A stretch of 64,000 nt of DNA, from NCBI RefSeq assembly GCF_020097835.1, contig NZ_CP083666.1, forward strand, positions 186,001-250,000. The letters run 5' to 3'. The notes beneath the pieces were generated by a model. That model saw only the letters and a program-made list of their open reading frames with translations, did not search any database and was not told the origin of the DNA. Made by a program: the position numbers and the translations under genes. The stretch is from Haloprofundus halobius (GTDB taxonomy: Archaea > Halobacteriota > Halobacteria > Halobacteriales > Haloferacaceae). Each line of letters opens with the position of its first letter. Position 1 is the stretch's first letter. This document shows positions 3,636 to 29,881 of this stretch, piece by piece.

Positions 3636-4379
3636 ATGCATCTCGCAGACGCACTCGCCGCGCGGGAGGGGATGACCTGCGTCGTCGGCGCGGGCGGGAA
3701 GAAGACGACGATGTACGCGCTCGCCGCGCGTCTCGACCGGGCCGTCGTCACCGCGTCGGTCCGCATCCCGATTCCGTCGCTCGAAGAGAACGTCGAAGAA
3801 GTCGTCGTCACCGACGACCCGCTCGGCGCGCTCGAAGCAGCGACGCCCGACGACTTTCCTCTTGGCTTGGTCCCCGGCCAAGCCGACGACGTGCGGTACC
3901 ACGGCTACGAGAACGAACTTCTGGACCGCCTCGCCGACTCGCACGACGGTCCGGTTCTCGTCAAAGCCGACGGCGCGCGGATGCGCGACTTCAAAGCCCC
4001 GAGCGACAGGGAACCACAGATTCCCGAGACGACGGATACCGTGCTCCCCATCGCCAGCGCGCACATCGTCGGCGAACCCTTAGACGAGAACCTCGTCCAC
4101 CGACCCGAACGAGTCGCCGAAATCGCCGGAATCGACGTGGGCGACACGATGACGGCCGAAACGGTTGCGGCTGTTCTCGCCAGCGACGACGGGGGACTGA
4201 AACGAGTCCCCGGGGAAGCGACGGCGGTTCCGGTCGTGAACAAAGTCGACGACGTTGTACTGGCCGGCGTTGGAAGAGAGATCGCGTTGAAGGTGCTGGA
4301 GCGCGCCGGTGGCCGAGTCGAGCGAGTGGTTCTCACACGAATGAACCACGACGACCCGGTGGTCGACGTAGTGGGTTGA
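3636..4379 (+). CDS. YqeC-like putative selenium/molybdenum cofactor accessory protein
   Basis: 247 residues. A Walker A-like loop GAGGKKTT lies at residues 18-25, as in the YqeC family, which is found near selenium-dependent molybdenum hydroxylases and MobA-type proteins. Family members are thought to act in labile selenium or molybdenum cofactor maturation, but the biochemistry is not well settled. LVKADGARMRDFKAP near the middle and VVNKVDD further on are typical family segments. It converges with mobA (minus strand), with only 9 bases between the stops. I see no selenium genes in the window, so a purely Mo/W role is equally plausible. Confidence 0.75.
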   Translation: MHLADALAAREGMTCVVGAGGKKTTMYALAARLDRAVVTASVRIPIPSLEENVEEVVVTDDPLGALEAATPDDFPLGLVPGQADDVRYHGYENELLDRLADSHDGPVLVKADGARMRDFKAPSDREPQIPETTDTVLPIASAHIVGEPLDENLVHRPERVAEIAGIDVGDTMTAETVAAVLASDDGGLKRVPGEATAVPVVNKVDDVVLAGVGREIALKVLERAGGRVERVVLTRMNHDDPVVDVVG

Positions 4380-4388
4380 CCCGTCGCG

Positions 4389-5009
4389 CTACCGTACTTG
4401 CTCGAACTCCGCGGCCGCGTCCTCGAACTCCTCGCGCGTGTTCAGGTTCTTGAACGTTCGCAGACTCCCGCGTTCGGCAATCTCCGACTCGTCGACGACG
4501 ACGTAGTCCAACTCGAACAGCGGGTCGATAATCTTGCGTGCGCCTTCTTCGAGCGCCGCATCGCAGGCGTCGGCCATCGCCGTCGCCCGGTAGACAGCGT
4601 GGGTCGTCTGGAACCACTTGTCCTCCAACTGCGCCACGGCCGCGTCGTGGCCCTCGGCGCGTTCGAACAGGTACGAGACGACATCTGGGTCGACAAAGGG
4701 CATGTCGCAGGCGACGACGACGGCGTACTCGCCGGAGACGGCGCGGAGGCCGGTCCGGATCCCCGACATCGGCCCCTCGTCGGGGGTCTCGTCCTCGGCG
4801 ACGGAGACCGTATGTGGATATCCCTCGAACGCGTCGCGTATCGCCGCGCGCTGGTCGGCGCGGCAGTTCACCACGAGAGAGTCGACGACGCCGGCGAGTC
4901 GGTCGCCGACGCGGCGAATCATCGGGGTTCCGGCGAGGTCGGCTGTCGCTTTGTCGGCGTCGCCGAAGCGGGTCGAGCGACCGCCGGCGACGATGACTGC
5001 CGTACGCAT
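4389..5009 (-). CDS. mobA: Molybdenum cofactor guanylyltransferase-like protein
   Basis: 206 residues. It is an NTP-transferase of the MobA type, which adds GMP to molybdopterin. The N-terminus VIVAGGRSTRFGDADKA carries the nucleotide-binding GGxSxRFGxxDK signature. VVACDMPFVDPDV in the middle contains the metal-binding Asp of the CDMP motif. I chose ATG at 5009 because the signature must sit close to the N-terminus; the frame stays open further upstream. It faces the YqeC-like gene tail to tail and is divergent from the AOR homologue. The alternative is a related nucleotidyltransferase with another substrate, since haloarchaea encode several. Confidence 0.85.
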   Translation of the reverse strand: MRTAVIVAGGRSTRFGDADKATADLAGTPMIRRVGDRLAGVVDSLVVNCRADQRAAIRDAFEGYPHTVSVAEDETPDEGPMSGIRTGLRAVSGEYAVVVACDMPFVDPDVVSYLFERAEGHDAAVAQLEDKWFQTTHAVYRATAMADACDAALEEGARKIIDPLFELDYVVVDESEIAERGSLRTFKNLNTREEFEDAAAEFEQVR

Positions 5010-5138
5010 GCGTGGCGGTTCGGTCGGACGCGACAAGCCTCTTGCGTCGGAGCGAACCACCGACGGTCGGTCGTCCGCCGCCACCCAAACTGCCGCCCCG
5101 CCAACGCTTATTGCCGTGAAGAATCATTTATAAATCAG

Positions 5139-6986
5139 ATGACGACCCCCACGCGCGACGCCGTGCTGCGGGTGGACCTCTCGGCGGGAAGCGTCGAGCG
5201 AACGCGCGTTCCCGAGGAGTGGCGACGCGATTACCTCGGCGGGAAGGGGGTGGGCGCGCGCTACCTCTACGCGGACCTCGCCCCCGGCGTCGACCCGCTC
5301 GGCCCCGACAATCTTCTTTCCTTTATGCTCGGCCCGCTGTCCGGTTACCTCCCGGGCGAGACGCGCTACGCGGCGGTGACGAAGTCGCCGCTCACCGGCG
5401 GCTTCCTCGACTCCTACGGCGGCGGGTCGTTCCCCGAGCGCCTCGCCGGGTCGCTCGACGACTGTCTCGGCGTCCTCGTCTCCGGTCGCGCCGAGAGCCC
5501 GGTCGCGCTCGTGGTCGAGGACGGAACGGTGACCATCGAACCCGCCGACGACCTCTGGGGCCGCGACACCGTCGAGACGGACGCCGCGTTCCCCGACGCG
5601 GCCGTCGCGTGTATCGGCCCGGCCGGCGAGTCCGAAGTCGCCTACGCCACTATCGCCTCCGACGCCGGCGACCACCACGCCGGACGCGGCGGTGCAGGAG
5701 CGGTGATGGGTTCGAAGCGACTGAAAGCCGTCATCGCCCGCGGCGACGCCCCCGAAGTGCCGTCCGAACTCCGCGACCTGCGCGAGCAGTACGAGCGCCG
5801 GTACGCGGACCACGACACGGGACGCTGGCAGGCCGCTGGCGAGACGCTGGAGAGCGTCGACTTCGCCAACGAAGTCGGGGTCCTCGCCACCGAGGGGTGG
5901 CAGCGAGGGCGGTTCGCGGGGGCGGAGAACATCGGAATCGAGGCGGCGCGCGAGGCGGCCGTCGGCCGCGAACGCGAAGGCGACGCCGCGCCCGGTGGCT
6001 TCCGTATCCGAACCGGAGATGGCGAGCACGAGAGCGTCCCGCGCGGGGCGACGCCGATGACGCTCGGGGCCGGACTCGGCGTCGAGGAGTTCGACGCCGT
6101 CGCGGCGCTCGGCGAGACGTGCGACCGACTCGGCATCGACGTCATCAGCGCCGGGAACGCTATCGCGTGGGCTATCCGCGCTGCCGACGCTGGCCTCGTC
6201 GAAACCGATGTCCGCTTCGGCGACGAGGAGGCGGCGCGGCGACTGCTCACCGCAATTGCGATGCGCGACGTCGAACTGGCCGACGCGCTCGCCGACGGCG
6301 TCGACGCCGCCGCCCGGCGCTACGGCGGCGACGACCTCGTACCGACGGTGAAGTCGATGGAACTGCCGACGTACGACCCCCGCGGCGCGGTGGGGATGGC
6401 GCTGGCGTACGCGACGAGCGACCGTGGTGCGTGCCATCGTCGCGCCAGACCGGTCGAGCGCGAGGTGTTCGAGGCGTGGGACGACGCCGACGTGGTCGAA
6501 GCCGTCGCGGGCGCGCAGACCGTCCGCTCCGTTCTCTGGAGTCTCGTCGCCGACGACTTCGTCGGCGAGACGATGTGGGGCGACCTCGGCGCGGAGTGGC
6601 TCGCGGCGGTCGGACTCCCCCACGACGCCGACGAACTGAGCCGAACCGGCGAGCGCATCTGGACGCTCGTCCGCCTGTTCAACGTCCGCGAGGGGTTCGA
6701 CCGGGCGGACGACGCGCTCCCCGAGGCGCTGCGCCGTCCCCTCGCGGACGGCCCGGCGGCCGGTAGCGCCGTCGATCCCGAGGCGTTCGGGCGACTGCTC
6801 GACGCCTACTACGCCGCTCGCGGGTGGGGGTCCAACGGTCGACCGACTCGAGCGACGGTCGAGCGATTCGGCCTCGGAAGCGTCGTCGACGACGCGACGC
6901 CGCTGGCCGACGAGGCGACGAGCGCCGAACGGACGAACCGCCGAACGACCGCCGCAGACGCCGACCACCACACAGATGACAGATAG
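5139..6986 (+). CDS. Aldehyde ferredoxin oxidoreductase homologue lacking Fe-S ligands
   Basis: 615 residues, AOR family. The tungstopterin-binding signature GRGGAGAVMGSKRLKAV is at residues 182-198 and the family segment YDPRGAVGMALAYATSDRGACH is at 412-433. Canonical AORs bind a [4Fe-4S] cluster through C-x2-C-x3-C plus a distant Cys. Here the expected region (about 280-300) has no Cys, and the distal site reads AGAQTVRSVLW. The only Cys are at 109, 158, 328 and 432. The intact pattern is present in the paralogue at 27950-29881. The start is ATG 5139; GTG 5163 is an alternative given a TTTATAAA box at 5127-5134. The last 11 bases overlap the next gene. Function after loss of the cluster is unknown. 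Confidence 0.88.
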   Translation: MTTPTRDAVLRVDLSAGSVERTRVPEEWRRDYLGGKGVGARYLYADLAPGVDPLGPDNLLSFMLGPLSGYLPGETRYAAVTKSPLTGGFLDSYGGGSFPERLAGSLDDCLGVLVSGRAESPVALVVEDGTVTIEPADDLWGRDTVETDAAFPDAAVACIGPAGESEVAYATIASDAGDHHAGRGGAGAVMGSKRLKAVIARGDAPEVPSELRDLREQYERRYADHDTGRWQAAGETLESVDFANEVGVLATEGWQRGRFAGAENIGIEAAREAAVGREREGDAAPGGFRIRTGDGEHESVPRGATPMTLGAGLGVEEFDAVAALGETCDRLGIDVISAGNAIAWAIRAADAGLVETDVRFGDEEAARRLLTAIAMRDVELADALADGVDAAARRYGGDDLVPTVKSMELPTYDPRGAVGMALAYATSDRGACHRRARPVEREVFEAWDDADVVEAVAGAQTVRSVLWSLVADDFVGETMWGDLGAEWLAAVGLPHDADELSRTGERIWTLVRLFNVREGFDRADDALPEALRRPLADGPAAGSAVDPEAFGRLLDAYYAARGWGSNGRPTRATVERFGLGSVVDDATPLADEATSAERTNRRTTAADADHHTDDR

Positions 6987-7845
6987 CATCGACCTCGACG
7001 AACTGGACGTATCGACCGACAGCGACGCGGAGAGTGCCAATCGTGGCGACTGGTTCTGGAAGGGGGAAGGCGACCCAGACGACGAGCGGGGGGCCGGAGA
7101 CTCCGACGACGGATCTCTCGGTTCGCCCGACGTCGCCGAGCGTTCCGGTGCCGACGCCGCTGCCGCCGAGAACGCCGCCGACACTACCGTCGCTGATACT
7201 GCCGAGGCAGCCACCTCGACGGAGACGGACCCCGACATCGACACGAGTGCGGAGACCGATTCCGACGCGAGCCACCGCCCGATCCCGCGCGTGCCGCGAA
7301 CCGACGACGGCAGTCCCGTCGGCATCCCAATCGAGGGCGGCGGCGCAGGCGGCGCGGCGACCGGGAGTATCGACGCCGACGACGCGGCCGCTGCAGACGA
7401 CGACGCGGAACCGGAGCCCACGGGACCACACGGGAGCGGCCCCTCCGAGATGACGATGGCGCTGACGTACGAGGCGGTGAAGCGACTGGAGAACCCCGCC
7501 GCCGCGTTCGCCGACGCCGAGGGGTGGACCGACTGGCTCGGCATCGTCGGCGACGTGGACGCGCACGTCATCACCAAGTTCCAGCGCGAGTCGGTCGTCG
7601 ACGTGGACTTCTTCAACGGTACCGGCACCGGTCCGGCCGAGCGTCTCGCCGGCATCGACGGCCACTCGATGTTCTTCGCCGAGCGGATGGTCGTCGTCGG
7701 CGTCGCGGGCGTCGACGAGTACATCGCCGAGGCGAGCGGGTGGGAGTTCGTCCCGCTGGAGACCGCCGCGGAGAAAGCCGGCTGGCCGCTCGTCGACGAG
7801 AGTGAGGGAACCGAGAACCACGTCGGCGACGCGGCGGAACGCTGA
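6976..7845 (+). CDS. Hypothetical protein with acidic N-terminal tail (DUF7124-like)
   Basis: 289 residues. Residues 1-155 are disordered and rich in Asp, Ala, Ser and Thr. The C-terminal ~130 residues form a compact domain starting MTMALTYEAVKRLENP and including DVDFFNGTGTGPAERLAG. I recall a haloarchaeal family of this type (DUF7124), but this was not checked. The ATG overlaps the end of the AOR homologue by 11 bases, so translation is probably coupled and the two proteins may function together. No catalytic motif is evident. Confidence 0.75.
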   Translation: MTDSIDLDELDVSTDSDAESANRGDWFWKGEGDPDDERGAGDSDDGSLGSPDVAERSGADAAAAENAADTTVADTAEAATSTETDPDIDTSAETDSDASHRPIPRVPRTDDGSPVGIPIEGGGAGGAATGSIDADDAAAADDDAEPEPTGPHGSGPSEMTMALTYEAVKRLENPAAAFADAEGWTDWLGIVGDVDAHVITKFQRESVVDVDFFNGTGTGPAERLAGIDGHSMFFAERMVVVGVAGVDEYIAEASGWEFVPLETAAEKAGWPLVDESEGTENHVGDAAER

Positions 7846-7897
7846 GACCGCCTCCCCGCACGTAATTTTTTGTGACTCCGACACGCACTAGCACAGT

Positions 7898-8164
7898 ATG
7901 AGTCTCAGAAACGGGTTCCGGCAGTCGTCGGTGCTCACGTTCGGCATTCTCGCCGCGATGGCGTGGCTGGCGCTCACCGCGGTACAGGTGTTCTCGTCGG
8001 TCGAGTCGCCGCTGACGTGGGCCGACCCGCCCGTCGGGACGGGCGCGATGGGCGGTCTCGTCGGTATCGGCGTGATGGTCGTCTTCGTCGGCGTCCTGCT
8101 GGTGCTGTTCAGCGAACTCGGCCACTCCGACCCCGCGCCGGAGGCGTGGCCGCCGGAGCGATGA
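7898..8164 (+). CDS. Small two-TM membrane protein
   Basis: 88 residues with two hydrophobic segments, roughly residues 13-33 (VLTFGILAAMAWLALTAVQVF) and 50-70 (GLVGIGVMVVFVGVLLVLF), and a short charged C-terminus. An AT-rich box (TAATTTTTT, about 7863-7871) lies ~30 bases before the ATG, the spacing of a leaderless haloarchaeal promoter. The stop overlaps the start of the zinc-ribbon gene (ATGA), and that gene overlaps the next, so three genes form one operon. Function unknown. Confidence 0.75.
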   Translation: MSLRNGFRQSSVLTFGILAAMAWLALTAVQVFSSVESPLTWADPPVGTGAMGGLVGIGVMVVFVGVLLVLFSELGHSDPAPEAWPPER

Positions 8165-8307
8165 CGCAGTTCGAGTGCACCGAGTGCGGCCAACTCGGGC
8201 GGTTCGGACGCTTCGACGAGTCGACGCTGACGATGCGCTGTCCCGTCTGCGAGGAACAGACGGTCTGGACCGTGGCCTTCGCCGACGAGGGAGGGGTGTC
8301 GTTTTGA
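8161..8307 (+). CDS. Small zinc-ribbon protein (CPxC type)
   Basis: 48 residues. Two Cys pairs, CTEC near the start and CPVC about 20 residues later, form a C4 zinc ribbon of the kind abundant among haloarchaeal micro-proteins. The start ATG overlaps the preceding stop (ATGA), and its own stop overlaps the following TTG start. That places it in the middle of a tightly coupled three-gene operon. Such proteins are often regulators or protein-interaction modules; the specific partner cannot be read from sequence. Confidence 0.8.
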   Translation: MTQFECTECGQLGRFGRFDESTLTMRCPVCEEQTVWTVAFADEGGVSF

Positions 8308-8642
8308 CGGTCGTCGTCCCGCTCTCAGAGCGGTTCCACGAGGCGGCCGAGGAGTGGGCCGACACCCGCCTCATGGACCCGGAGGACGCAGTCGAGGTGA
8401 AAGCCGAACAGGCGCTTCTGGAGGTCGAACACCTCGTCTCGGGCGCGCACGACGTCGAGTTCGCGGTCGAAGACGGCGAACTCCGCTACGACCCGAGCGA
8501 GGAGTTGGCGGCGCTGCTGGCGTCGCACGCGGAGACGACGGGCGTCGACGAGGCGACGGTGTTAGGACTCCACGTCGACCTCTTCGCCCGCGTCTTCCTC
8601 GACGACGACGCGAAGCGGCCGTCGAACGCGCCGCCGAAGTGA
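8304..8642 (+). CDS. Hypothetical small acidic protein
   Basis: 112 residues, predicted to be soluble and mostly helical, with a high Glu/Asp content and no cysteine motif. I chose TTG at 8304 because it overlaps the stop of the zinc-ribbon gene by four bases (TTGA), in keeping with the coupling of the two upstream genes. The frame itself is open earlier. Segments such as DPEDAVEVKAEQALLEVEHLV look like a conserved core. No family recognised. Confidence 0.7.
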   Translation: MTVVVPLSERFHEAAEEWADTRLMDPEDAVEVKAEQALLEVEHLVSGAHDVEFAVEDGELRYDPSEELAALLASHAETTGVDEATVLGLHVDLFARVFLDDDAKRPSNAPPK

Positions 8643-8716
8643 CTCGAGTCGCGGACGTTTCGCTCCCGCTGCCGACGTACGAACTATTAAGCGACCGGAG
8701 TGCGAACCGTTGTCAC

Positions 8717-8902
8717 ATGAAGAAGGACAGCGGGTGGCGACCGACCGCGGCGATGGACGAGTACAAAGGCTTCGCCACGTGGGAGTACGAGACCGGTCCG
8801 CAGGAGATAAATCAGGGCGAAGTCGACGGGGCGCCCGGCTTTCCGCTCGCGTTGAAGGCGAAACTCGGACTGGTCGACGACGACGTGGAACCGCCGGAGT
8901 GA
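8717..8902 (+). CDS. Small hypothetical haloarchaeal protein
   Basis: 61 residues, MKKDSGWRPTAAMDEYKGFATWEYE at the start with several aromatic residues, then an acidic tail. The short length, sensible ATG and AT-rich stretch about 25-35 bases upstream (ACTATTAAG near 8680-8690) support a real leaderless gene. It stands alone after the three-gene operon and converges with the DyP-like lipoprotein. Function not known. Confidence 0.65.
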   Translation: MKKDSGWRPTAAMDEYKGFATWEYETGPQEINQGEVDGAPGFPLALKAKLGLVDDDVEPPE

Positions 8903-8938
8903 GGCGGGCGGCGGCCACGACCACGTTTCTGCGGTGAT

Positions 8939-10192
8939 TCACAGTAAAGGGAAGGAGCGGTCGTTCCGCGCCGGGACGTAGAAGTTCGCCCGCGACGCGA
9001 CGCGGACGAAGTTGAGGATGCCGTTGTGCTCGCGGTCGGTGATCGCCTCGCTGTCGTCGCGGACGTACCACCCGTTCATCGCCTTCCGCGTCCGCCGAAA
9101 GTCGTCGAGTTTTCGCTGGAAGGCGACGAAGTGGACGCCCGGTTTGCCACCGTCGACGGTGTTGAAGTCGCGGCGGAGCACGAGCGGTTCGTCGGTGTCG
9201 TCGCGGCGGACCTGCGCGACTTTCTCGTGGTGGCCGACGACGTCGTGGTCGCGGGCGTGTTCGCGGACCCGATTCGAGAAGGGTACGTCGTCGGTGAGGT
9301 TCGCCACGTCCTCTGCGCTGAACTCCGGCGAGAACATCCGCTGGATACGCTCGTGCTCGTCGAGCGTGCCGTACCAGTCGCGGAGGTTCACGGTCAGTCG
9401 GCTGAGATGCATCGTCGTCCCGTCGGCGAACCGGCCGTCGGGGATGGCGACGCTCGACTCGGCGGGTTGCGTGCGCTTGCGCCCCGAGAAAAAGCCCATG
9501 AACATCTGCTCGTCGCCCGAGAGTGCGTCGCCGGGAACGCCCTCCGCGTCGGCGTGTTCGGCGGGCAGTCCCTCGCCGAGGAAGCCGGTTCGCCGCCCGC
9601 GGATTCGGAACACGTCGTCGAGGCGGTGGTCGACCGACTCGCCTTCGAGTCGCGTTCGGGAGCCGAACAGGGCGTTCTCGGCGGCTGCGAGGTGCGACGG
9701 GAGGTCACTCTCCAGCACGAGCGCGGCGTCGAACGACTGGAGTTCCGGTTTGTCGGTCCGCGACAACACCTGCGGTGGATCGATGGGGACGCGCGAGAGT
9801 TCCCCGATTCGCTCGAAGTAGTTCGTCCCCCACGCCAGCGTGTGAAACAGCCCCTCGTGGTGCCAGTCGTACGCCGCTTCGAGCGTCCGCATCGCCCGTT
9901 CGACGGTACGCGCGTCTTCGACCGAGGGTTCACGCTGCAGGTCCATGAGGAGGATGCGGCGGTAGCGCGCCTGCAGGTCGTTTCCGGACCCGTCGGTCGG
10001 CAGGGACTCGGCCTGCGCGAACTGGCGGTCCGGGAGGCGGTCGCCCCGCGGGTTGGCGGCGAGTCCGTCGACGCCCGGGCCGGTCGCCGGATCGAGGAGG
10101 CGGCTACAGCCCGAGAGGCCGGCGGCTCCCGTCACGGCCGCGAGACGGGTCAGCGCGGTGCGTCGTGAGACCACGGTTTCAGTAGAACTCAC
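8939..10192 (-). CDS. Tat-exported DyP-like lipoprotein with altered heme-pocket motif
   Basis: 417 residues from GTG 10192; a TTG at 10207 is the upstream alternative. The N-terminus has a twin-arginine motif (SRRTALTRL) followed by a lipobox LSGC, so it is probably exported folded and lipid-anchored. The body has the dye-decolorizing peroxidase fold pattern. GHHEKV...LVLRRDFNT carries the likely proximal His and heme-pocket Arg, and GVHFVAFQRKLDDF is the C-terminal family segment. The catalytic GFxDG motif instead reads MGFFSGRKRTQ, so the distal Asp appears replaced by Ser. It may be a heme-binding protein without normal peroxidase activity. I believe databases hold a haloarchaeal family for it, but this was not checked. 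Confidence 0.75.
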   Translation of the reverse strand: MSSTETVVSRRTALTRLAAVTGAAGLSGCSRLLDPATGPGVDGLAANPRGDRLPDRQFAQAESLPTDGSGNDLQARYRRILLMDLQREPSVEDARTVERAMRTLEAAYDWHHEGLFHTLAWGTNYFERIGELSRVPIDPPQVLSRTDKPELQSFDAALVLESDLPSHLAAAENALFGSRTRLEGESVDHRLDDVFRIRGRRTGFLGEGLPAEHADAEGVPGDALSGDEQMFMGFFSGRKRTQPAESSVAIPDGRFADGTTMHLSRLTVNLRDWYGTLDEHERIQRMFSPEFSAEDVANLTDDVPFSNRVREHARDHDVVGHHEKVAQVRRDDTDEPLVLRRDFNTVDGGKPGVHFVAFQRKLDDFRRTRKAMNGWYVRDDSEAITDREHNGILNFVRVASRANFYVPARNDRSFPLL

Positions 10193-10302
10193 CGGCGGAA
10201 TCTGCAAAAACTTGTCTGTCGATTCGGCGTACTGTCACGTCTTCGGGAGAACCTCGCACCGACCGTACATTTATTCGCCCGCTCGTACAACCCTCGGTAA
10301 CG

Positions 10303-10455
10303 ATGCTTCCGACACCCCTCCACGCACAGGGCGTGACGGGTCTCGACGGGCCGATTCCGCTGGAGGTCGCCCTCCTATCGCTCGGACTCGGAGCGGTCGT
10401 TCTCGGATTCGTCGCGTACGACGCCTACCGCGCGTACGGGGAGTACGTCTCGTGA
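10303..10455 (+). CDS. Small single-TM membrane protein
   Basis: 50 residues with one hydrophobic helix, PLEVALLSLGLGAVVLGFVA (about residues 19-38), and a Tyr-rich end YDAYRAYGEY. The start ATG has a TATA-like ATTTATTCGC about 30 bases upstream (10268-10278). The stop overlaps the GTG start of the next gene, so it opens a run of three overlapping genes for small membrane proteins. Too short to assign a function. Confidence 0.65.
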   Translation: MLPTPLHAQGVTGLDGPIPLEVALLSLGLGAVVLGFVAYDAYRAYGEYVS

Positions 10456-10733
10456 GCAGCGCCTCGCGGTCAGTCGCAGCCGCCGCCCCGAGCGCCGAGA
10501 CGGTGCTCTACTACCTCCGGGCGACGGTGTACGTGCTCGCGTCGCTTCTGTGCTGCTCGCTCTTGGTCGTCGGCACGGTGGCCATCATCGCGGAACTGAA
10601 AGGGACGTGGCACTGGGCGATACATCTCGAATCGACCATCAGCTACATGGGCGTCTTCGTCGCGGCGCTCCTGCTCCCGTTGATTCCGCTGACGGCGACG
10701 CTGTTCGTCTCCCGATGGTGGTTCGATGGGTAG
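10452..10733 (+). CDS. Small membrane protein
   Basis: 93 residues with two TM helices: about 22-48 (VLYYLRATVYVLASLLCCSLLVV) and 63-85 (MGVFVAALLLPLIPLTATLFV). Start GTG at 10452 overlaps the previous stop (GTGA). Its end overlaps the next gene by 8 bases. The segment VVGTVAIIAELKGTWHWAIHLE resembles AVVAVVAESHATWEWYFRME in the downstream protein, so the two are diverged copies. Function unknown. Confidence 0.7.
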   Translation: MSSASRSVAAAAPSAETVLYYLRATVYVLASLLCCSLLVVGTVAIIAELKGTWHWAIHLESTISYMGVFVAALLLPLIPLTATLFVSRWWFDG

Positions 10734-10971
10734 CGACGGGAGTCGCCACGTCACCGCGCTTCGGCGGTTCGCCGTCGTCTCCGTGGTGGGGCTCTGCCTG
10801 TCTGTGTTGGGTGTCGCCGTCGTCGCCGTCGTCGCGGAGTCGCACGCGACGTGGGAGTGGTACTTCCGCATGGAACAGGCGATGAGCGTACTGATGCCGG
10901 TGACGATGGCGTTTCTCGGTCTCTCTCTCGTTTCGGGGTTCGGCGTCGTCTACGCCGCCGACCGGCGCTGA
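10726..10971 (+). CDS. Small membrane protein, paralogue of the preceding gene
   Basis: 81 residues with two TM helices (about 13-35 and 51-73). The loop motif ATWEWYFRMEQAMS corresponds to GTWHWAIHLESTIS in the upstream protein, indicating tandem duplication. It overlaps the previous gene by 8 bases. It ends the small-membrane-protein operon and converges with the TorD-like chaperone gene across a 225-base spacer containing short inverted repeats (GCTTTC/GAAAGC at 11031-11049). Confidence 0.7.
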   Translation: MGSDGSRHVTALRRFAVVSVVGLCLSVLGVAVVAVVAESHATWEWYFRMEQAMSVLMPVTMAFLGLSLVSGFGVVYAADRR

Positions 10972-11196
10972 GCGACGCCGCCGAAGGGGTGTCTCTTCGC
11001 ACCTCTCGCCCCAATCTGTTATGGAATCAGGCTTTCTATACGGGAAAGCGAACGCTGATTCGGTTGTCAGCATCGTTCCGCTCTGCGGTCTGATGGGGGG
11101 CGGAGTCACAGCAAGCCGTCCTTGTGCTCGGCTCGCAAGCTGACAATCGGTACTTTCCGACCCCGAGTGGCGCGTCCGCGCGGTCGACGACGCTCG

Positions 11197-11826
11197 TTAG
11201 CGCGCCATCTGGGCGACGAGTTCGTCCTCGAACTCGACGAGACCTGCGAAAACGAGCGCCGCCGCCCGGAACAGCGGCTCCTCCGTCTCGTCGAGCACGT
11301 CGTCGACGAACGCCTCGTGCCACGTCGTCAAGTGTTCGTCGAGGAAGACGCGCTCGTAGCCGAACGCCTCCTCCGCGCCGTGGAACTGTCGCTCGACGAG
11401 GGAGCGGAGGAACGCGAGTTCGACGGCGATGAAGTCGTTCTCCTCGCCGTACTCCTCCGGCGGGTTCCACCCGGCGGCGGCGTAGCTTGCCTCGACGTTC
11501 GCCAGCCCCTCGCCGATGAAGTCGGTGTCGTCGCGGTAGTACGTCTCGTGGGCCAGCACGGGCGGCCGCGGGCCGACGAAGACGCGGGTGTACTCCTGCG
11601 CCAACTCGTCGTGGACCGCCGCCGGGTCCCGTCCCTGGTTCTTCGCGACGAACTCCCGGAGCAGGTCGAATCCCTCGTCCAGCGAGGTGTTCACCGCCGC
11701 GTCAGGCAACTGGAGGCCGTCGCCGAGCAGGTTCGCGACGAACGCCTCGTCGGGCACGTCCCAGAACACCTCGACGACGAAGTCGAGCAGTTCGAGGCGG
11801 GCGTCGTAGACGGCGGCGTCGTCCAT
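11197..11826 (-). CDS. TorD/DmsD-family molybdoenzyme chaperone
   Basis: 209 residues, all-helical. The pattern LAQEYTRVFVGPRPPVLAHETYYRD is characteristic of TorD-type chaperones that bind the Tat signal of a molybdoenzyme until its cofactor is inserted. The likely client is FdhA (14163-17408), which has a twin-arginine leader and lies in the same locus. The ATG overlaps the stop of the upstream Fe-S gene by one base (TAATG), so the two are translated together. The product is cytoplasmic. A shared role for the AOR enzymes is unlikely, because they have no Tat leader. Confidence 0.85.
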   Translation of the reverse strand: MDDAAVYDARLELLDFVVEVFWDVPDEAFVANLLGDGLQLPDAAVNTSLDEGFDLLREFVAKNQGRDPAAVHDELAQEYTRVFVGPRPPVLAHETYYRDDTDFIGEGLANVEASYAAAGWNPPEEYGEENDFIAVELAFLRSLVERQFHGAEEAFGYERVFLDEHLTTWHEAFVDDVLDETEEPLFRAAALVFAGLVEFEDELVAQMAR

Positions 11827-13952: not shown

Positions 13953-13973
13953 ACCCTCGACAACTCGTAGCAT

Positions 13974-14162
13974 CCACGAAAGCCTTTGTGTGCTAACAGG
14001 CCACTACGATACGGTAATCTCGCATACGAAACCGGTTAACCGGACGTTGCTCCCGTAATTTAATGGTCTTTGCTAGCAGATGTCTCACCAACGCATGCAC
14101 CCACGACGAGAATGGGGCAAGTCGAATCGGGGCGGGAGAACGACCCAACGAGAGAGACACGA
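13974..14162. promoter_or_regulatory. Divergent promoter region of the formate dehydrogenase locus, with palindrome
   Basis: This spacer separates the minus-strand Fe-S/chaperone operon from fdhA. It contains a perfect 12-bp palindrome CCGGTTAACCGG at 14032-14043, preceded by GAAA. It also has an AT-rich box GTAATTTAATG at about 14054-14064, a plausible TATA element for fdhA with a ~70-base leader. TGCTAAC and TGCTAGC elements (near 13991 and 14072) flank the palindrome. A site between two divergent operons is well placed for shared control, for example by oxygen or formate, but no known regulator motif was matched. Confidence 0.45.
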
Positions 14163-17100
14163 ATGAGCACAGAACCGGTTTCACTAGACTTAGACAGGCG
14201 GTCCTTCCTGAAGGCGAGCGCGCTCGCGGGCGCCGTCGCCCTCGGCGGCGGCGGCGCGGGCCAGGCGCTCGCCCAGAGCGAGGAGGGCGAAACGGACGGG
14301 GCCGACGTAGAGGGCGAACTGACGAAGACCATCTGCAACTTCTGCGCGGTCGGCTGTGGGTTCCGCGCCGAGCGGAAAGGCAGCGCGTTCGCCGGGCAGG
14401 AACCCTGGCACGAGAACCCCATCAACAACGGGTCGCTCTGCTCGAAGGGGGCGGCCATCTACGGGAGCGAACACTCCGAGAAGCGGTTGAAACACCCGCT
14501 GAAGAAGGTCGACGGCGAGTGGCAGAAGATCTCCTGGTCAGAGGCGTACGACGACATCTCCTCGGAACTGGAGCGCATCCGCGAGGAGTTCGGCCCGGAC
14601 AGCGTGATGTGGCTCGGCAGCGCCCACCACTCCAACGAGGAGGCGTACGCGTTCCGGAAACTCGCGTCGCTGTACGGGACGAACAACTGCGACCACCAGG
14701 CGCGCATCTGCCACTCGACGACGGTGGCGGGCCTCGCGAACACGTGGGGCTACGGCGCGATGACGAACACCATCAACGACTACCGCAACTTCGACCTCAA
14801 CATCATCATCGGGCAGAACCCCGCGGAGGCGCACCCGATTGCGATGCAACACATCCTCGAAGGCCAGCGTCGCGGCGGCACCATCGCCTCCGTCGACGCG
14901 CGGTTCACGAAGACGTCGGCGCACGCCGACAGTTTCTACCGCATCCGCCCGGGGACGGACGTCGCGTTGATGATGGGGCTGATATACTACCTGCGCGAGC
15001 AGGGCGAACTCGACCAGGAGATGCTCGACGGGCGGGTGAACGGCTGGCCCGACATCGACCGGAACCTCGACCAGTACGACCTCGAAACCGTCGCGGACAT
15101 CACGTGGATAAGTCAGGAGCAGATTCAGGAACTGGGCGACCTCATCATCGAGAACAAGCCGAACGTCCAGATCGAGTGGGCGATGGGCGGTACCCAGCAC
15201 AACAACGGGACGCAGAACATCCGGTCGTACGCGCTGGCGAGTCTCGCCTCCGGCACCGCCGCCCGAAGCGGCGGCGGCCTGCAGGTAATGCGCGGACACG
15301 CGAACGTCCAGGGGGCGACCGACCTCGCGGTGGCGAGTCACATCCTGCCGGGCTACTACTCGGTGTCGTCGGCCGGGTCGTGGCAGTACTGGGCCGACGT
15401 CTGGACGCAGAGTCCGTACACGAGCGGGAGCATCAGCTTCCGGGAACTGTACGACCGCTACGACCTGATGGAGCGCGACATGTATGCGCGGCAGGACGAG
15501 TACGTCAACTACGGGGATTCGAGCGACCCCGACGACTCCGAAGCGGCGGGCGAGAACGAGGGAGAGATAGACGACTCGTTCCCGAGCGAGCGGTCGATGA
15601 TGTTCCAGAACGGGCTGACGGTCGCCCGGTGGTTCGACGCCGCGCTCCCGCAGGAGCAGCGACTCAACGAGACGCCCATCTATCAGCCGAATCCGGTGAA
15701 GGCGGCCTTCTTCTGGGGCCACTCGGCGAACTCCATCAGCGAGATGGAGAAGATGCGCGACGGGATGGACCTGCTCGACTTGCTGGTCGTCGTCGACGTG
15801 TTCCCCTCGCTGGCCTCGGTGATGGCCGACCGCTCCGACGGCGTCATCATCCTGCCCGCGGCCAGCCAGTACGAACACTACCGGTCGCTGACGAACTCCC
15901 ACCGGTCGGTGCAGTGGAGCGACCCGGTTCGAAACCCCTCGCACAACACGAAGCCCGACCTGCAGATAATGCAGGAGCTGGCCGCCGAACTCGGCTTCGG
16001 CGACCACTTCGACTGGGGGACCGGCCCCGAACTGTACAGCGGCAAGAGCACCTACCAAGACGTGCTCCGCGAGATCAACCTCGGCGTCCGGACTATCGGG
16101 TACCAGCAGGACCCCGAGCGACTGGAGAGCCAGCGCGAGTACGACTGGGCGTTCAGCACCGAAGACCTGAAGGCGACGCAGGGGCCGCACAAAGGCGAGT
16201 TCTGGCAACTACCGTGGCCCTGCTGGGGGGAGGGTCACCCCGGCACGCCCATCATCTGGACCGACGACCTCGACCCCAACGAGGGCGGCCACGACTTCCG
16301 CGCCCGGTGGGGGACGACCGCTCCAACACCCGAGGAGTGGAACGAGATGACGACGCCCGCCGAGGAGTACCCGCTTCGGTCGACGTTCGACCAGCAGGGC
16401 GAGGAGGGGCTGAACCTGCTCCGGGACTCGTTCGATCCCGACTGGTGGAACGGGTCGGGGCCGATCCGCGGCGTCCCGCAGTACCCCGGCTTCACGACGA
16501 CGCTGCCCGAAGACTTCGAGAACGCCGACGCGCCGAACCTCCCGACGCGGTACGCGCTCGACCCGACGAAGTCGGTGCTCGACGCCGCGCGGGACATGAA
16601 CGAGCGGTTCGACTGGGCGGACTTCGACCTCGACGACTACCGCCCCTACGACTTCAAGCAGCCGGACCCGCCGACGGGTCGGGCGAAGGCCCGCGCCGTG
16701 GCGTGGAACTTCCTCGACCCGATTCCGGTCCACCGCGAACCCATCGAGAGTCCGCGACCTGACCTCGTCGAACAGTGGCCGGCAAACGGCCAGCAGCGCA
16801 ACTTCTACCGCCTCGACCAGAACAACGCGACGGTTCAGGAGGATGCGACGCGGAAAGCCGCCGAGAACGGCTTCGACGTCATCATGACTACGGGAAGACA
16901 GGTCGAACACCAGGGCGGCGGTTCCGAGAGTCGCTCGAACATCTTCCTGGCGGACCTACAACCGCACATGTACGCCGAGATAACGCCGAACATGGCTGAC
17001 GAACTCGGCGTCGACGGCGGCGACCTGGTCGTCGTCTCGACGACCGACCGCGGCTCCGTCCTCGTGAAGGCGCGGGTGACGAACCGCCCGAACGACCGCG

Positions 17101-17408
17101 AGACGTTCCTCCCGTTCCACTGGGGCGGTATCTGGCGCGGCAAGAGCCTGGAGGAACGCTACCCCGACGGGACGGTGCCGTTCGCGCTGGGTGACAGCGT
17201 GAACCTCATCACGTCGAAGGGGTACGACGTCGAAACGCAGATGCAGGAGACGAAGGCGGCGATGGTGAAAGTACGGCCGGCGACGCAGGAGCTCGTCGAC
17301 GAACTCAACATGGACGTCGACCTGTCGTCGCTGGAGTTCCCGCAGGACCGCGACAACGTCGGGACGCAGAAGGACTTCGACGTCCGTGACTCGAAAACAG
17401 TCCAATAA
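14163..17408 (+). CDS. fdhA: Formate dehydrogenase catalytic subunit, Tat-exported
   Basis: 1081 residues, Mo/W-bisPGD oxidoreductase family. The twin-arginine leader DRRSFLKASALAGAVAL (residues 11-27) fixes ATG 14163 as the start. Residues C58, C61, C65 and C93 bind the [4Fe-4S] cluster. QARICHSTTVAGLANTWGYG carries Cys183-His184, the pair that in formate dehydrogenases binds the metal (Cys or Sec) and assists hydride removal; the VAGL...GAMTN context is specific for this enzyme class. The C-terminal domain covers about 890-1040. The length is close to E. coli FdnG. An exported enzyme with FdhB and cytochrome b genes downstream implies respiratory formate oxidation. An in-frame acidic stretch near 455-480 is probably a halophilic insertion. 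Confidence 0.92.
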   Translation: MSTEPVSLDLDRRSFLKASALAGAVALGGGGAGQALAQSEEGETDGADVEGELTKTICNFCAVGCGFRAERKGSAFAGQEPWHENPINNGSLCSKGAAIYGSEHSEKRLKHPLKKVDGEWQKISWSEAYDDISSELERIREEFGPDSVMWLGSAHHSNEEAYAFRKLASLYGTNNCDHQARICHSTTVAGLANTWGYGAMTNTINDYRNFDLNIIIGQNPAEAHPIAMQHILEGQRRGGTIASVDARFTKTSAHADSFYRIRPGTDVALMMGLIYYLREQGELDQEMLDGRVNGWPDIDRNLDQYDLETVADITWISQEQIQELGDLIIENKPNVQIEWAMGGTQHNNGTQNIRSYALASLASGTAARSGGGLQVMRGHANVQGATDLAVASHILPGYYSVSSAGSWQYWADVWTQSPYTSGSISFRELYDRYDLMERDMYARQDEYVNYGDSSDPDDSEAAGENEGEIDDSFPSERSMMFQNGLTVARWFDAALPQEQRLNETPIYQPNPVKAAFFWGHSANSISEMEKMRDGMDLLDLLVVVDVFPSLASVMADRSDGVIILPAASQYEHYRSLTNSHRSVQWSDPVRNPSHNTKPDLQIMQELAAELGFGDHFDWGTGPELYSGKSTYQDVLREINLGVRTIGYQQDPERLESQREYDWAFSTEDLKATQGPHKGEFWQLPWPCWGEGHPGTPIIWTDDLDPNEGGHDFRARWGTTAPTPEEWNEMTTPAEEYPLRSTFDQQGEEGLNLLRDSFDPDWWNGSGPIRGVPQYPGFTTTLPEDFENADAPNLPTRYALDPTKSVLDAARDMNERFDWADFDLDDYRPYDFKQPDPPTGRAKARAVAWNFLDPIPVHREPIESPRPDLVEQWPANGQQRNFYRLDQNNATVQEDATRKAAENGFDVIMTTGRQVEHQGGGSESRSNIFLADLQPHMYAEITPNMADELGVDGGDLVVVSTTDRGSVLVKARVTNRPNDRETFLPFHWGGIWRGKSLEERYPDGTVPFALGDSVNLITSKGYDVETQMQETKAAMVKVRPATQELVDELNMDVDLSSLEFPQDRDNVGTQKDFDVRDSKTVQ

Positions 17409-17417
17409 GGTGAGATA

Positions 17418-18092
17418 ATGTCGACAAACAACACGAACGAAGCGAAGATGTCACAGGGCGTCATGAGCGTCGGTGAGGACGCGCGAATCTTCCCCGACGT
17501 GGAGGCGTGTATCGACTGCGGCGGCTGCGTCGTCGCCTGCAAACGCACGTGGGACGTCCCGCGGGACGAACAGCGCATCAGCATCTCGACGATGCTCGAA
17601 GGAGAGGAGGCGGCGGCGGGGCTCAACGCCCACAGCGCGCGGGCGCTCAGACAGGGTCAGAACCCCGGCGAGACGAGCGTGCCGATGCAGTGTTACCACT
17701 GCGAGAACGCGCCCTGCGTCTCGGTCTGTCCGACCGACTCGCTGTTCAAGAAGGACAACGGCTTCGTCGAGGTCAGAGACGACCTCTGCGTCGGCTGCCA
17801 GTACTGCCTGTCGGCGTGTCCGTTCGGCGCGCCGCAGTTCCCCGACGCCGACGAGGGCGCGGCGAAACTGTTCGGCACCGGCGGCACGATGGATAAATGT
17901 ACGATGTGCGAGGAGCGCCAGGACGTCGGCAAAGGGCCCGCCTGCGCCGAGGAGTGTGCGACGGACGCCCTTCTCGTCGGCACCGCCGGTCAGATCGCCG
18001 AGGAACTCGACAAGCGCGGCAGCGCGTCGTTCTTCAACCAAGAGGCGATGGAGATAATCTTCGGTGCCGAGGACGCGGAGGCGTTCCAATGA
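17418..18092 (+). CDS. fdhB: Formate dehydrogenase iron-sulfur subunit
   Basis: 224 residues with sixteen Cys arranged for four [4Fe-4S] clusters: 31/34/37/41, 92/95/100/104, 124/127/130/134 and 161/164/176/180. This is the FdnH/NrfC/DmsB-type electron-transfer subunit that links the molybdenum site of FdhA to the membrane cytochrome. It has no signal peptide, so it probably leaves the cell as a complex with the Tat-borne FdhA. It starts 9 bases after fdhA and overlaps the next gene by ATGA. Internal ATGs at residues 11 and 16 are alternative starts. Confidence 0.92.
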   Translation: MSTNNTNEAKMSQGVMSVGEDARIFPDVEACIDCGGCVVACKRTWDVPRDEQRISISTMLEGEEAAAGLNAHSARALRQGQNPGETSVPMQCYHCENAPCVSVCPTDSLFKKDNGFVEVRDDLCVGCQYCLSACPFGAPQFPDADEGAAKLFGTGGTMDKCTMCEERQDVGKGPACAEECATDALLVGTAGQIAEELDKRGSASFFNQEAMEIIFGAEDAEAFQ

Positions 18093-18532
18093 GCCGCTCG
18101 CTGCCCGAGACGCGCGACTACAGCGGGTTGGCCATCGCCGTCAACGCGATTATCGCCCTGGTCGTCACCGCCGTCGTCGTCTGGTGGGTGTCCGGCTTCG
18201 CGTACAACGCCGAGGCGTTGTTCCGCGTCGGGCCGACCGTCGAGGGCGGCGGCATCGGGGCCGACTGGAGCGTCGGCAACACGATCCCGGCGCTGGACTT
18301 CCTCATCGCGTTCATCCACGCGGCGGACGTGCTGATGGGTATCTTCATCCTCGTCATGGTGTTCGTCCACTGGGGCGCGTTCCGCCGCCTCGCCTCGCGG
18401 ATGCGTCAACCCGGCGAGACGTCGCGGTACGACTCCGACGCGGACGCCGTCGCCGACGGCGGTCGAGCGGTCGAAAGCGGTGCCTCGGATTCCGGCGACG
18501 ACGCTTCCGACTCCGGAGGTGAGCATCGATGA
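18089..18532 (+). CDS. Small membrane protein of the formate dehydrogenase operon
   Basis: 147 residues. It has two TM helices (about 13-36 and 72-98), an acidic disordered C-terminus (Asp/Ser/Gly from about 115), and a His in each of IHAAD and FVHWG in the second helix region. Start and stop each overlap a neighbour by four bases (ATGA), so it is an obligate operon member between FdhB and cytochrome b. It may be an extra anchor or an assembly factor. I do not recognise a family outside haloarchaea. Confidence 0.75.
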   Translation: MSRSLPETRDYSGLAIAVNAIIALVVTAVVVWWVSGFAYNAEALFRVGPTVEGGGIGADWSVGNTIPALDFLIAFIHAADVLMGIFILVMVFVHWGAFRRLASRMRQPGETSRYDSDADAVADGGRAVESGASDSGDDASDSGGEHR

Positions 18533-19542
18533 CGAACTTGGACCACGGGAAGTTCACCCGGATGACGACGACGTTCCACACGCTGCTCGCGCTGGACGTG
18601 TTCATCCTGTTCTTCTCGGGCTACGGGCTGATGTTCAACGACGAACTCTGGTGGCTCGTCACGCTGATGGGCGGCAGCACCGGCGTGACGGCGGTTCACC
18701 GCATCGCGGGCCTCGGCCTCGTCGCGCTCATCGTCTTCTGGATGCTGATGATGCTGACGACGAGCACCGGCCGCGGCAACTTCCGTGAGATTCTGCTCGG
18801 TCCCGACGACGTCGCCGCCGCGATTCAGGACTTCAAGTTCGTCCTCGGGATGGCCGACGAGCGCCATCCGAACGCCCGGCAGTTCGCGGGCTACAAATCC
18901 GACGAGGTGCCGCTGCTTTCGTACATCGGCAAGGGCGTCGTCTACATCTTCTCCATCGAACTGACGCTGCTCACCATCTCGGGGCTGCTCATCTGGAGCA
19001 AGACCGGCGTGATGCAGTACTTCGCGACGAAGACGGCGGCGATGGCGTTCGTCGTCTTCCACGGCCTGCTCGGCGTCATCATGCTGATGGGCGTGATGTT
19101 CCACATCTTCGAGCACGGCTTCCATCCGGCCTTTTACCCCGTCGAGGTGAAGGCGTTCATCCCACGGAAACTGATTCCCGAGGAGCACGCCGACACCGAG
19201 CACGACTCGACGGGTATCAGCCAGCTCACCCTCGCGCCGTCGTGGGGGTGGGCGACGAACGTCATGGGCGTGCTCACCGTCATCGGCATCGTGAGCGTCC
19301 TCGTGGGCAGTATCTTCGACGAGGGCTACCCCGTCCCGCGCGAACTCGCCGTCGGCGGCGGACCGACCGACCTGCTTCTGACCGTCGGCATCAACGTCGG
19401 CATCCTCGTGCTGTTCATCGGAATGGCGCTGCAGATGTACGGCAACCTGATGCGCGTCCGCTGGCAGAAGCAGTTGGAGGCGGAGGCGCGCGCGACGACC
19501 GCCACGGACGGTGGGCAGGTGGACCACCCGAACGACGACTAG
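18529..19542 (+). CDS. Formate dehydrogenase cytochrome b subunit (FdnI/FdoI type)
   Basis: 337 residues. Four or more TM helices carry His residues placed as for a di-heme b-type cytochrome: FHTLLALDVFILFFSG (helix 1), AVHRIAGLGLVALIVFW (helix 2), and FVVFHGLLGVIMLMGVMFHIFEHG (helix 4). The loop FKFVLGMADERHPNARQFAGYKSDE is typical of the prokaryotic cytochrome b561 / Ni-hydrogenase-type subunits. Two further helices at the C-terminus (about 238-257 and 283-302) exceed the usual four. It should take electrons from FdhB and reduce quinone in the membrane. Confidence 0.88.
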   Translation: MTNLDHGKFTRMTTTFHTLLALDVFILFFSGYGLMFNDELWWLVTLMGGSTGVTAVHRIAGLGLVALIVFWMLMMLTTSTGRGNFREILLGPDDVAAAIQDFKFVLGMADERHPNARQFAGYKSDEVPLLSYIGKGVVYIFSIELTLLTISGLLIWSKTGVMQYFATKTAAMAFVVFHGLLGVIMLMGVMFHIFEHGFHPAFYPVEVKAFIPRKLIPEEHADTEHDSTGISQLTLAPSWGWATNVMGVLTVIGIVSVLVGSIFDEGYPVPRELAVGGGPTDLLLTVGINVGILVLFIGMALQMYGNLMRVRWQKQLEAEARATTATDGGQVDHPNDD

Positions 19543-27949: not shown

Positions 27950-29881
27950 TCAGTCGTCGGCGGGGGCGGCGGAGTCGCTGCCGCTGCTGACGCCCGTACC
28001 GGGGCCGATGTCGATTTCGAGTTCCTCGAGTTTCTCGTCGGGAACGACGCCGTCGACCCAGCCGCGGTGGCTGTAGTACTCGTCTTTCATCTCGTCGAGT
28101 TCGCAGAACTCGCCCTCCGAGGCACCCTGTCCGGCGACGCCGCCCTCGCCGTCGAGGAAGCGCGCGGGCAGCGAGTCGTCGGAGCCGTCGAAGCCCGCGA
28201 GGTTGTTGTAGTAGCGTTCGAGGTTGTAGACGCGCTCGCCCGCCTCGACGAGTTCGTCCTCGGTCACGTCGAGGCCCGTCATGCCGTTGTACTGCATGAC
28301 GTACTCCTCGATACCCTCCGCGAAGGCGTTGAACTTGCAGATGTCGAAGCTGTCGGAGATGGCGTGGAGGTCCTGGAACGTGGCGGTGAGTTCACCTTTG
28401 CCCTCCCACGCGTACGGGTCGACTTTCTCCGGGATGCCGAGAATCTCGGCGGCCGGGGTGTAGGCGCGCAGGTGGCACGCCCCGCGGTTCGAGGTGGCGT
28501 AGGCGATGCCCATCCCCTTCATGCAGCGCGGGTCGTACGCCGGAATCGTCTGTCCCTTGATCGCCAGCGAGTTGTCCTCCGCGTCTTTCTCGTCGGCGAT
28601 GCGCTTTGCACCCTCGGCGAGCAGGTCCGGGAGGCCCTCCTCGCGGTGCGAAATTTCCTCGATGAGGTCGACCATCGTCTCGGAGTCGCCCCAGTCGAGC
28701 GTCCCGACGTCGTCGAGTTTGCCCTGTTCGGACATCTCCATCGCCATGGCCATCATGTTGCCCACCTCGATGGTGTCGACGCCCATGTCGTTGCAGCGGT
28801 CGATCATCAGCGCGATGTCGTCGCGCTCGGTGTGCCCGGAGTTCGGGCCGAGCGCGTACGCCGACTCGTACTCGTACGACTCCATGCGGACGTTCATCTC
28901 CTCGCCCTTGTGCATCGTCGTCACCTCGACTTCCTTCTTGCAGGCGACGGGGCAGGAGTGACACGTCGGTTCGTCGACGAGGATGTTCTCGCGGACGTTC
29001 TCGCCGGAGACCTCCTCGGCGTCGATGGTCGTCCCCTCGCTCTCGGAGAAGCTCCGCGTCGAGGTGTACTTGCCGTTCTTGGTCGGCAGACCGTCCATCT
29101 CCTCGGTGATGTTCATCAGGACGTTCGTGCCGTACATCGAGAGGCCGCCCTCGTTCGGCGCGGTGACGTCGGACTCCTGAATCGCCTGCATCCCCTGCTG
29201 GTAGCCCTTCTGGAACGTCTCCGCGTCCGCGGGCTTCGGCATTCGGGTGCCGGATTTGACGACGACCGCTTTGAGGTTCTTCGAGCCCATCACGCAGCCG
29301 GTGCCGCCGCGGCCCGAGGCTCGGTCGTCCTCGTTGACGATACAGGCGTAGCGCACGCCGTTCTCGCCGCCGGGGCCGATGGCCATCACGGAGACGTTCT
29401 TGCCGACGCTGCCGTCGACTTCCTCGTCGATGGCTTCGATGGTGTCGTGGACGCCCTTCCCCCAGAGGTGAGAGGCGTCGCGGAGTTCGACTTCGCCGTC
29501 TTCGACGTACGCGTACACCGGTTCGTCGGCTTTGCCGTCGAAGACGAGGCCGTCGAAACCGGACCACTTCAGACGTGCGCCGGACCAGCCGCCGTGGTGG
29601 GAGTCGGTGACGGTGCCGGTGAGCGGCGACTTCGTGACGACGGCAATGCGGCCGCTCATCACCGTCTGGGTGCCCGTCAGCGGGCCGTTCATAAACGCGA
29701 GCCGGTTCTCCGGCCCGTCCGGGTCGACGTCCGGACCGGCGTCGAAGACGTACTTCACGCCGAGGCCGCGCGCGCCGATGTACTTTCGCGCGTCCTCGTC
29801 GTCGATACCCTGGTAGGTCACCTCACCCGAGGTGAGGTCGACCTGCCCTACGTGGTCTTGGAATCCGCCGAGTTCGGTCAT
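27950..29881 (-). CDS. aor: Aldehyde ferredoxin oxidoreductase (canonical tungstoenzyme)
   Basis: 643 residues, full length for AOR. Cluster ligands are intact: C307, C310 and C314 in PTCHSCPVACKK, and C515 in SFDICKFNAF. The pterin-binding segment SGRGGTGCVMGSKNLKAV is at 189-206, and YDPRCMKGMGIAYATSNRGACH follows at about 449-470. It should oxidise aldehydes to acids using ferredoxin. On the minus strand a TATA-like ATATATAAT (29897-29904) lies close upstream of the ATG. No ferredoxin gene is adjacent; the nearest in the window is at 60920-61255. Haloarchaea carry several AORs whose substrates are not known. Confidence 0.92.
   Translation of the reverse strand: MTELGGFQDHVGQVDLTSGEVTYQGIDDEDARKYIGARGLGVKYVFDAGPDVDPDGPENRLAFMNGPLTGTQTVMSGRIAVVTKSPLTGTVTDSHHGGWSGARLKWSGFDGLVFDGKADEPVYAYVEDGEVELRDASHLWGKGVHDTIEAIDEEVDGSVGKNVSVMAIGPGGENGVRYACIVNEDDRASGRGGTGCVMGSKNLKAVVVKSGTRMPKPADAETFQKGYQQGMQAIQESDVTAPNEGGLSMYGTNVLMNITEEMDGLPTKNGKYTSTRSFSESEGTTIDAEEVSGENVRENILVDEPTCHSCPVACKKEVEVTTMHKGEEMNVRMESYEYESAYALGPNSGHTERDDIALMIDRCNDMGVDTIEVGNMMAMAMEMSEQGKLDDVGTLDWGDSETMVDLIEEISHREEGLPDLLAEGAKRIADEKDAEDNSLAIKGQTIPAYDPRCMKGMGIAYATSNRGACHLRAYTPAAEILGIPEKVDPYAWEGKGELTATFQDLHAISDSFDICKFNAFAEGIEEYVMQYNGMTGLDVTEDELVEAGERVYNLERYYNNLAGFDGSDDSLPARFLDGEGGVAGQGASEGEFCELDEMKDEYYSHRGWVDGVVPDEKLEELEIDIGPGTGVSSGSDSAAPADD

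Follow-up and report, generated by a model that had tools for sequence, protein, structure and literature searches.

A Haloarchaeal Aldehyde Ferredoxin Oxidoreductase Family Protein without Iron-Sulfur Ligands and Its Possible Role in Formate Dehydrogenase Cofactor Maturation

Gene Content of the Locus

The stretch of DNA analyzed here (the window) comprises 64,000 nucleotides from Haloprofundus halobius. It contains a cluster of genes (3636-19542) in the order yqeC, mobA, AORL, DUF7124, TorD-like chaperone, FlpD/ferredoxin protein, TAT-exported formate dehydrogenase (FDH) alpha subunit, ferredoxin-type beta subunit, and cytochrome b-type gamma subunit (Table 1). AORL is the name used here for the 615-aa product of ORF 5139-6986 (+). 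MobA is the best NCBIfam match of the mobA-like ORF (116.6 bits, under the 151.85 cut-off), and Fdh-alpha is that of the FDH-type alpha subunit (434.9 bits, under the cut-off of 666). This alpha subunit carries the FDH active-site signature; we infer its formate activity, because its score lies under the TIGR01591 cut-off. The FDH partner was absent from the original prediction on this locus, a reading of the sequence without database searches.

Table 1. Genes and sequence features of the AORL locus in the window. Residue numbers are those of AORL unless marked Pfu (P. furiosus AOR numbering); position 14070 is an ORF start, the true start of the alpha subunit being probably further in.
Feature	Position	Strand	Evidence
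yqeC (TIGR03172 equivalog)	3636..4379	+	162.8 bits against a cut-off of 73
mobA-like nucleotidyltransferase, divergent from AORL	4389..5084	-	NTP_transf_3, 7e-38
AORL, AOR/WOR-fold protein without [4Fe-4S] ligands, 615 aa	5139..6986	+	Pfam, AlphaFold2, Foldseek
H179-H180 in place of Pfu R182-A183 (Mg2+/phosphate bridge region), common with the Cys-bearing sister clade	5673..5678	+	Alignment
C-x2-C-x3-C remnant, residues 281-288 (G..A...F at Pfu 288/291/295)	5979..6002	+	Alignment
R302-G303-A304 in place of Pfu E311-Y312-E313 (catalytic Glu313 and Tyr312 lost)	6042..6050	+	Alignment of 84
H433 (Pfu His448, kept) and R434 (replaces a hydrophobic residue)	6435..6440	+	Both 84/84
W467...D472, remodelled second pterin motif (Pfu D489 to W, ligand C494 to D)	6537..6554	+	Both 84/84
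DUF7124 paralogue, 11-bp overlap with the AORL stop	6976..7845	+	PF23439, 2.8e-37
TorD-like chaperone of the FDH cluster	11197..11820	-	Weak TorD/DmsD profile match
FlpD/ferredoxin-type Fe-S protein, 715 aa	11826..13973	-	Pfam FlpD and Fer4
FDH-type molybdopterin alpha subunit, TAT signal	14070..17408	+	NCBIfam, signature RICHSTTV
Ferredoxin-type beta subunit	17418..18089	+	Best match FDH3_beta, 4e-42, under curated cut-off
Cytochrome b-type gamma subunit	18529..19542	+	Hydrophobic ORF; weak FDH cytochrome b556 match
Ordinary AOR paralogue, four ligands kept (C307, C310, C314, C515)	27950..29881	-	Domains and residue check

Several other genes of the window deserve mention. A small protein without Pfam match (8238-8642, +) is conserved near AORL in 23 of the 84 loci compared below, and a DUF7405/Dyp-type peroxidase-like protein (8939-10207, -) recurs near AORL in 12 of them. 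Just past the FDH cluster, a MoaD/ubiquitin-like protein of 92 aa with a Gly-Gly end (20890-21168, +) may be a sulfur carrier for molybdopterin synthesis.

Fold and Loss of Iron-Sulfur Ligands

Both AOR domains were found at full length in AORL by Pfam, AFOR_N at 6e-64 (215.9 bits against a gathering threshold of 29.8) and AFOR_C at 2.6e-88 (297.2 bits against 27). AlphaFold2 modelled AORL with high confidence (pLDDT 93.5, pTM 0.93), and Foldseek matched the model to the solved AORs 9mqx, 1b25, and 1aor with TM scores of 0.88-0.90, which shows that the AOR fold survives.

Residue numbers such as Glu313, Asp489, and His448 follow P. furiosus (Pfu) AOR, whose cluster ligands C288, C291, C295, and C494 are aligned with G281, A284, F288, and D472 in AORL. 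All four ligands are replaced in each of the 84 aligned sequences of the AORL clade, with Asp at position 494 throughout, which confirms the original prediction that every Fe-S ligand has been lost and bears out its expectation of a clade of cysteine-free homologues; the four cysteines that it assigned to the ordinary paralogue in the window were also matched exactly on residue check. The only cysteines of AORL are C109, C158, C328, and C432, and only the last three are broadly conserved in the clade. Since C328 and C432 are counterparts of non-ligand cysteines also present in P. furiosus AOR, there is no substitute ligand set, and a supply of ligands by other cysteines at the right positions was ruled out. 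A frameshift in the window copy only was likewise discounted, because the loss is common to the whole clade. By sequence and predicted fold, AORL is a member of the AOR family, and its residues indicate that it is not a functional aldehyde:ferredoxin oxidoreductase; in practice, "aldehyde ferredoxin oxidoreductase" is a misleading annotation for AORL genes.

Active Site and Pterin Pocket

In the 1aor structure, a pair of D-x-x-G-L-(C/D) motifs serves as binding site for the two pterins. The first is kept in AORL (D329 and D334, equivalent to Pfu Asp338 and Asp343) and the second is changed, so that bis-pterin binding by AORL is not assured. The pterin-binding region had been described as intact in the original prediction, which holds for the first motif, the loop GRGGAGAVMG (182-191), and R76, but not for Pfu N93, R182, A183, and D489, all of which are replaced. 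According to one survey of the family (PMC12096430), catalytic second-shell roles are played by Thr243, Glu313, Tyr427, and His448, together with Tyr312 and Tyr452, Glu313 being the proposed catalytic base of aldehyde-oxidizing members, and the bridging Mg2+ sits on the backbone carbonyls of Asn93 and Ala183.

Thr243, Tyr427, His448, and Asp343 are kept in 84/84 sequences of the AORL clade. The loss of Glu313 and Tyr312, overlooked in the original prediction, is equally complete: position 311 is Arg and position 312 is Gly in all 84 sequences, and position 313 is always Ala, Gly, or Ser. In addition, a new invariant Arg (R434; 84/84) occupies Pfu position 449. With Thr243, Tyr427, and His448 kept but the cluster ligands and Glu313 gone, part of the pocket near the metal is preserved in a protein that no longer has the electron relay or the residue proposed as catalytic base.

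Distribution of the Clade and Its Sister Group

A profile built from 24 orthologues (threshold E below 1e-200) was run on 381 haloarchaeal genomes and detected AORL in at least 209, not counting a small number of split or inserted copies (e.g., those in G008 and G038). In the phylogenetic tree, AORL forms one monophyletic haloarchaeal clade (SH-aLRT 100), whose sister is a small haloarchaeal subfamily of nine members (L068 and L182-L189), all nine of which keep C-x2-C-x3-C and PEYE. As the HH and Tyr93 substitutions are already present in this sister clade, changes in the pocket preceded the loss of the cluster. Beside L068 are a polyamine-type transporter and an FAD amine/amino-acid oxidase-like gene, as would be expected for an aldehyde oxidase of the usual kind. 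Seven genomes were classed as sister-bearing, and four of them are without an FDH-type gene.

Gene Neighborhood across Haloarchaea

The neighborhood of AORL was compared in 84 loci, consisting of 80 from many genera that were fetched regardless of their neighbors, three others, and the window. In 52 loci AORL has an FDH-type alpha gene at a distance of no more than about 8 kb, against a chance expectation of roughly 1% of loci (crude binomial, assuming two FDH genes per genome), and 59 loci have at least one FDH component. Other neighbors are YqeC (33 loci), the FlpD/ferredoxin protein (28), DUF7124 (24), and MobA (19), and none of the eight scored neighbor families was present in 19 loci. The FDH signature C-H-x-x-T-V was found in all 51 aligned FDH neighbors, which belong to several separate lineages (a cytosolic 704-aa type, a NuoG type, and two TAT-exported groups).

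Where linked, DUF7124 is directly downstream of AORL. This family was rejected as a specific partner of AORL, since each of the 116 haloarchaeal genomes tested contains it. It is usually represented by a core copy (e.g., G000 C1:414934-415266), with a second copy in many genomes; the AORL-linked gene is this second paralogue, which can overlap the AORL gene as it does in the window. The original prediction had taken the neighbors as pointing to Mo/W cofactor handling, and this stands for YqeC (present in every AORL genome tested, see below) and MobA, but not for the universal DUF7124. As judged from gene context, a link between AORL and Mo/W cofactor handling is strongly supported.

Co-Occurrence with Formate Dehydrogenase and YqeC

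An FDH-type gene was defined as a TIGR01591 match at E<=1e-100; this profile matches NasA-like proteins too, and FDH identity rests on the signature together with profile ranking. Such a match is present in 209/209 genomes with AORL, and the 66 genomes that have no such match are all without AORL. To allow for the relatedness of the genomes, the association was also tested within genera: in the nine genera that include both AORL genomes and FDH-negative genomes, AORL is missing from all 20 FDH-negative genomes (p ~4e-8 as a product of exact probabilities, genomes of unlisted genus not included). Among 194 genomes tested for YqeC, it was detected in 106/106 genomes with AORL, and 136 of the 137 genomes with YqeC had an FDH-type match. 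The distribution is nested, with AORL within YqeC and YqeC within FDH. YqeC is also close to FDH in AORL-negative genomes (e.g., G036 and G124), and roughly 30 of the 194 carry both YqeC and an FDH-type gene with no intact AORL (a few of these being split copies). This makes YqeC the broader partner, with AORL as an extra component. The genomic distribution thus leaves the AORL-FDH link well supported. A universal requirement of FDH for AORL was rejected, as NuoG-type FDH with YqeC was found without AORL.

Comparison with FdhD and the Selenium-Cofactor Trait

FDH normally requires FdhD (FdsC in Rhodobacter) for its essential sulfido ligand (PMC12140954, PMC6239281). The FdhD profile matched none of 381 haloarchaeal genomes at E<=1e-20, and a search of 59 haloarchaeal genomes at E<=1 gave no score over the cut-off. 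Among 14 control genomes, 8 did score. The canonical FDH sulfurtransferase was therefore not found in the haloarchaea sampled, in which a very divergent FdhD may possibly exist. FDH-type genes are common across the Halobacteria sample in which the FdhD family went undetected. FdhD/FdsC would have a role analogous to that proposed for AORL, i.e., readying the pterin cofactor of FDH (PMC12140954, PMC6239281), but AORL has no CxxC and no Pfam match to the FdhD family (PF02634), and its clade has no new specific Cys that would suggest direct sulfur transfer.

YqeC, which has no settled function (PMC11448449), is an element common to AORL loci and the YqeB/YqeC/SelD selenium-cofactor trait, which in archaea is confined to Halobacteriales (PMC5322559). 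No SelD match was found in the window genome at E<=1e-25, and the trait was rejected for this genome. SelD is present in 19 of 194 genomes and, where positions were compared (e.g., G055, G016, and G180; G055 C2:236240-238042 and similar), adjoins a second YqeC copy. This suggests that haloarchaea have two types of YqeC that differ in function. Considering both the absence of SelD from the window genome and its position beside the second copy elsewhere, the FDH-linked YqeC does not belong to the known selenium trait.

Proposed Role of AORL

Given the loss of Glu313 and the relay, the partly kept pocket, the link to FDH and YqeC, and the failure to find FdhD, the simplest account is that AORL helps in the maturation or loading of FDH. 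We propose, with a probability of about 0.5, that AORL is a redox-dead, pterin-binding accessory protein of haloarchaeal FDH cofactor maturation that acts together with YqeC. Such an AOR/WOR paralogue would still bind the pterin-based Mo/W cofactor or an intermediate, receiving or holding the (bis-)metallopterin with YqeC and, in many genomes, with MobA and a TorD-type chaperone, and would help to modify the cofactor or to deliver it to apo-FDH. It might act before or during cofactor insertion, presumably at the sulfuration or the insertion step. A more specific and rather tentative version is an FdhD-free maturation of FDH, in which a metallopterin enzyme recruited from another superfamily now serves as a cofactor scaffold and, with YqeC, carries out the assembly, sulfuration, or delivery of the cofactor of FDH. 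AORL could conceivably be a sensor or use another electron acceptor, as suggested in the original prediction.

Several other explanations were weighed. It seems unlikely that AORL is a working metallopterin enzyme with no need of an Fe-S relay, either passing electrons straight to a partner (compare DMSO/TMAO reductases) or performing non-redox C1 chemistry beside FDH. The invariant Thr243, Tyr427, and His448 near the metal would suit such an enzyme, the new invariant R302 and R434 could bind an anionic substrate, and FDH is found alongside formyl-tetrahydrofolate ligase in several Halobellus-type loci; however, Tyr312 and Glu313, the latter being the base proposed in PMC12096430, are lost in every member, no dedicated redox partner is conserved beside AORL, and cofactor handling agrees better with its close co-occurrence with YqeC. 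It is quite improbable that AORL serves the FDH complex as a structural subunit or as a regulator, such as a cofactor-supply sensor gating FDH assembly or expression. Although the fold is intact and AORL is linked to several FDH architectures, these partners (cytosolic, NuoG-type, and TAT-exported) have differing subunits, AORL is often transcribed apart from them, in a divergent unit close to yqeC and mobA, and only AFOR families were matched in the Pfam search, with no DNA-binding or signalling domain found. There is little chance that AORL stores or buffers Mo/W-pterin for all metallopterin enzymes, its link to FDH reflecting FDH demand only: the partly kept cofactor pocket and the YqeC and MobA neighbors would agree with this, but the molybdopterin oxidoreductase neighbors scored in the 84 loci are of FDH type, and no FDH-type-negative genome has AORL (0/66). 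Finally, a decaying pseudogene, or a Cys loss due to sequencing or frameshift artefact, was rejected as having practically no probability, as it has nothing beyond the missing motif in its favor, and the identical clade-wide loss in many genera, the open frames, and the strong conservation of the substituted sites refute it.

The AORL clade has lost both the cluster and a catalytic residue, yet its sequence is conserved, and more than half of the haloarchaeal genomes tested contain a member. If the accessory role in FDH maturation is right, AORL appears to have changed its job from an enzyme to an accessory of a different metallopterin enzyme. This raises the question of how haloarchaeal FDH is sulfurated and loaded when profile searches find no FdhD, for which AORL and YqeC are concrete and testable candidates in genetically tractable archaea.

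Relation to Known AOR/WOR Proteins

AORL shares its domains and fold with the AOR/WOR family (P. furiosus AOR, 1aor, and FOR, 1b25; Haloferax volcanii WOR83, 9q1t; and 9mqx), as well as Thr243, Tyr427, His448, Arg76, and Asp338/Asp343. It differs in having no [4Fe-4S] ligand, Glu313, or Tyr312, in the replacement of Asp489 by Trp and Cys494 by Asp, and in its genomic partners, which are FDH and YqeC instead of ferredoxin or an aldehyde pathway. The YdhV and BamB clades keep their Fe-S cluster. Like AORL, these clades are without the second-shell residues usual in AORs (PMC12096430), but unlike AORL, which gains no Cys, they have acquired one as a ligand of the metal. That survey also reports altered cluster ligation in P. 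furiosus WOR4, for which aldehyde activity was not found; WOR4 loses one Cys (to Gly) and keeps a [3Fe-4S] cluster, whereas AORL loses all four. Cofactor and cluster residues of the WOR/AOR family are presented in the two surveys as highly conserved, with very little variation (PMC13328260). Haloarchaeal cysteine-free members are not mentioned in the available portions of either survey (PMC13328260, PMC12096430), which describe partial loss only for WOR4. In the open literature, no earlier description of a cysteine-free AOR clade, a haloarchaeal FdhD, or YqeC with FDH was found, which does not prove priority.

Outside the haloarchaea, an AOR in a Bacillota metagenome bin (L028, 6001-7818) has HQ, Tyr93, and CHRRA features in common with AORL. 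It keeps all cluster ligands and Glu313, and its place in the tree is immediately outside the AORL and sister clades.
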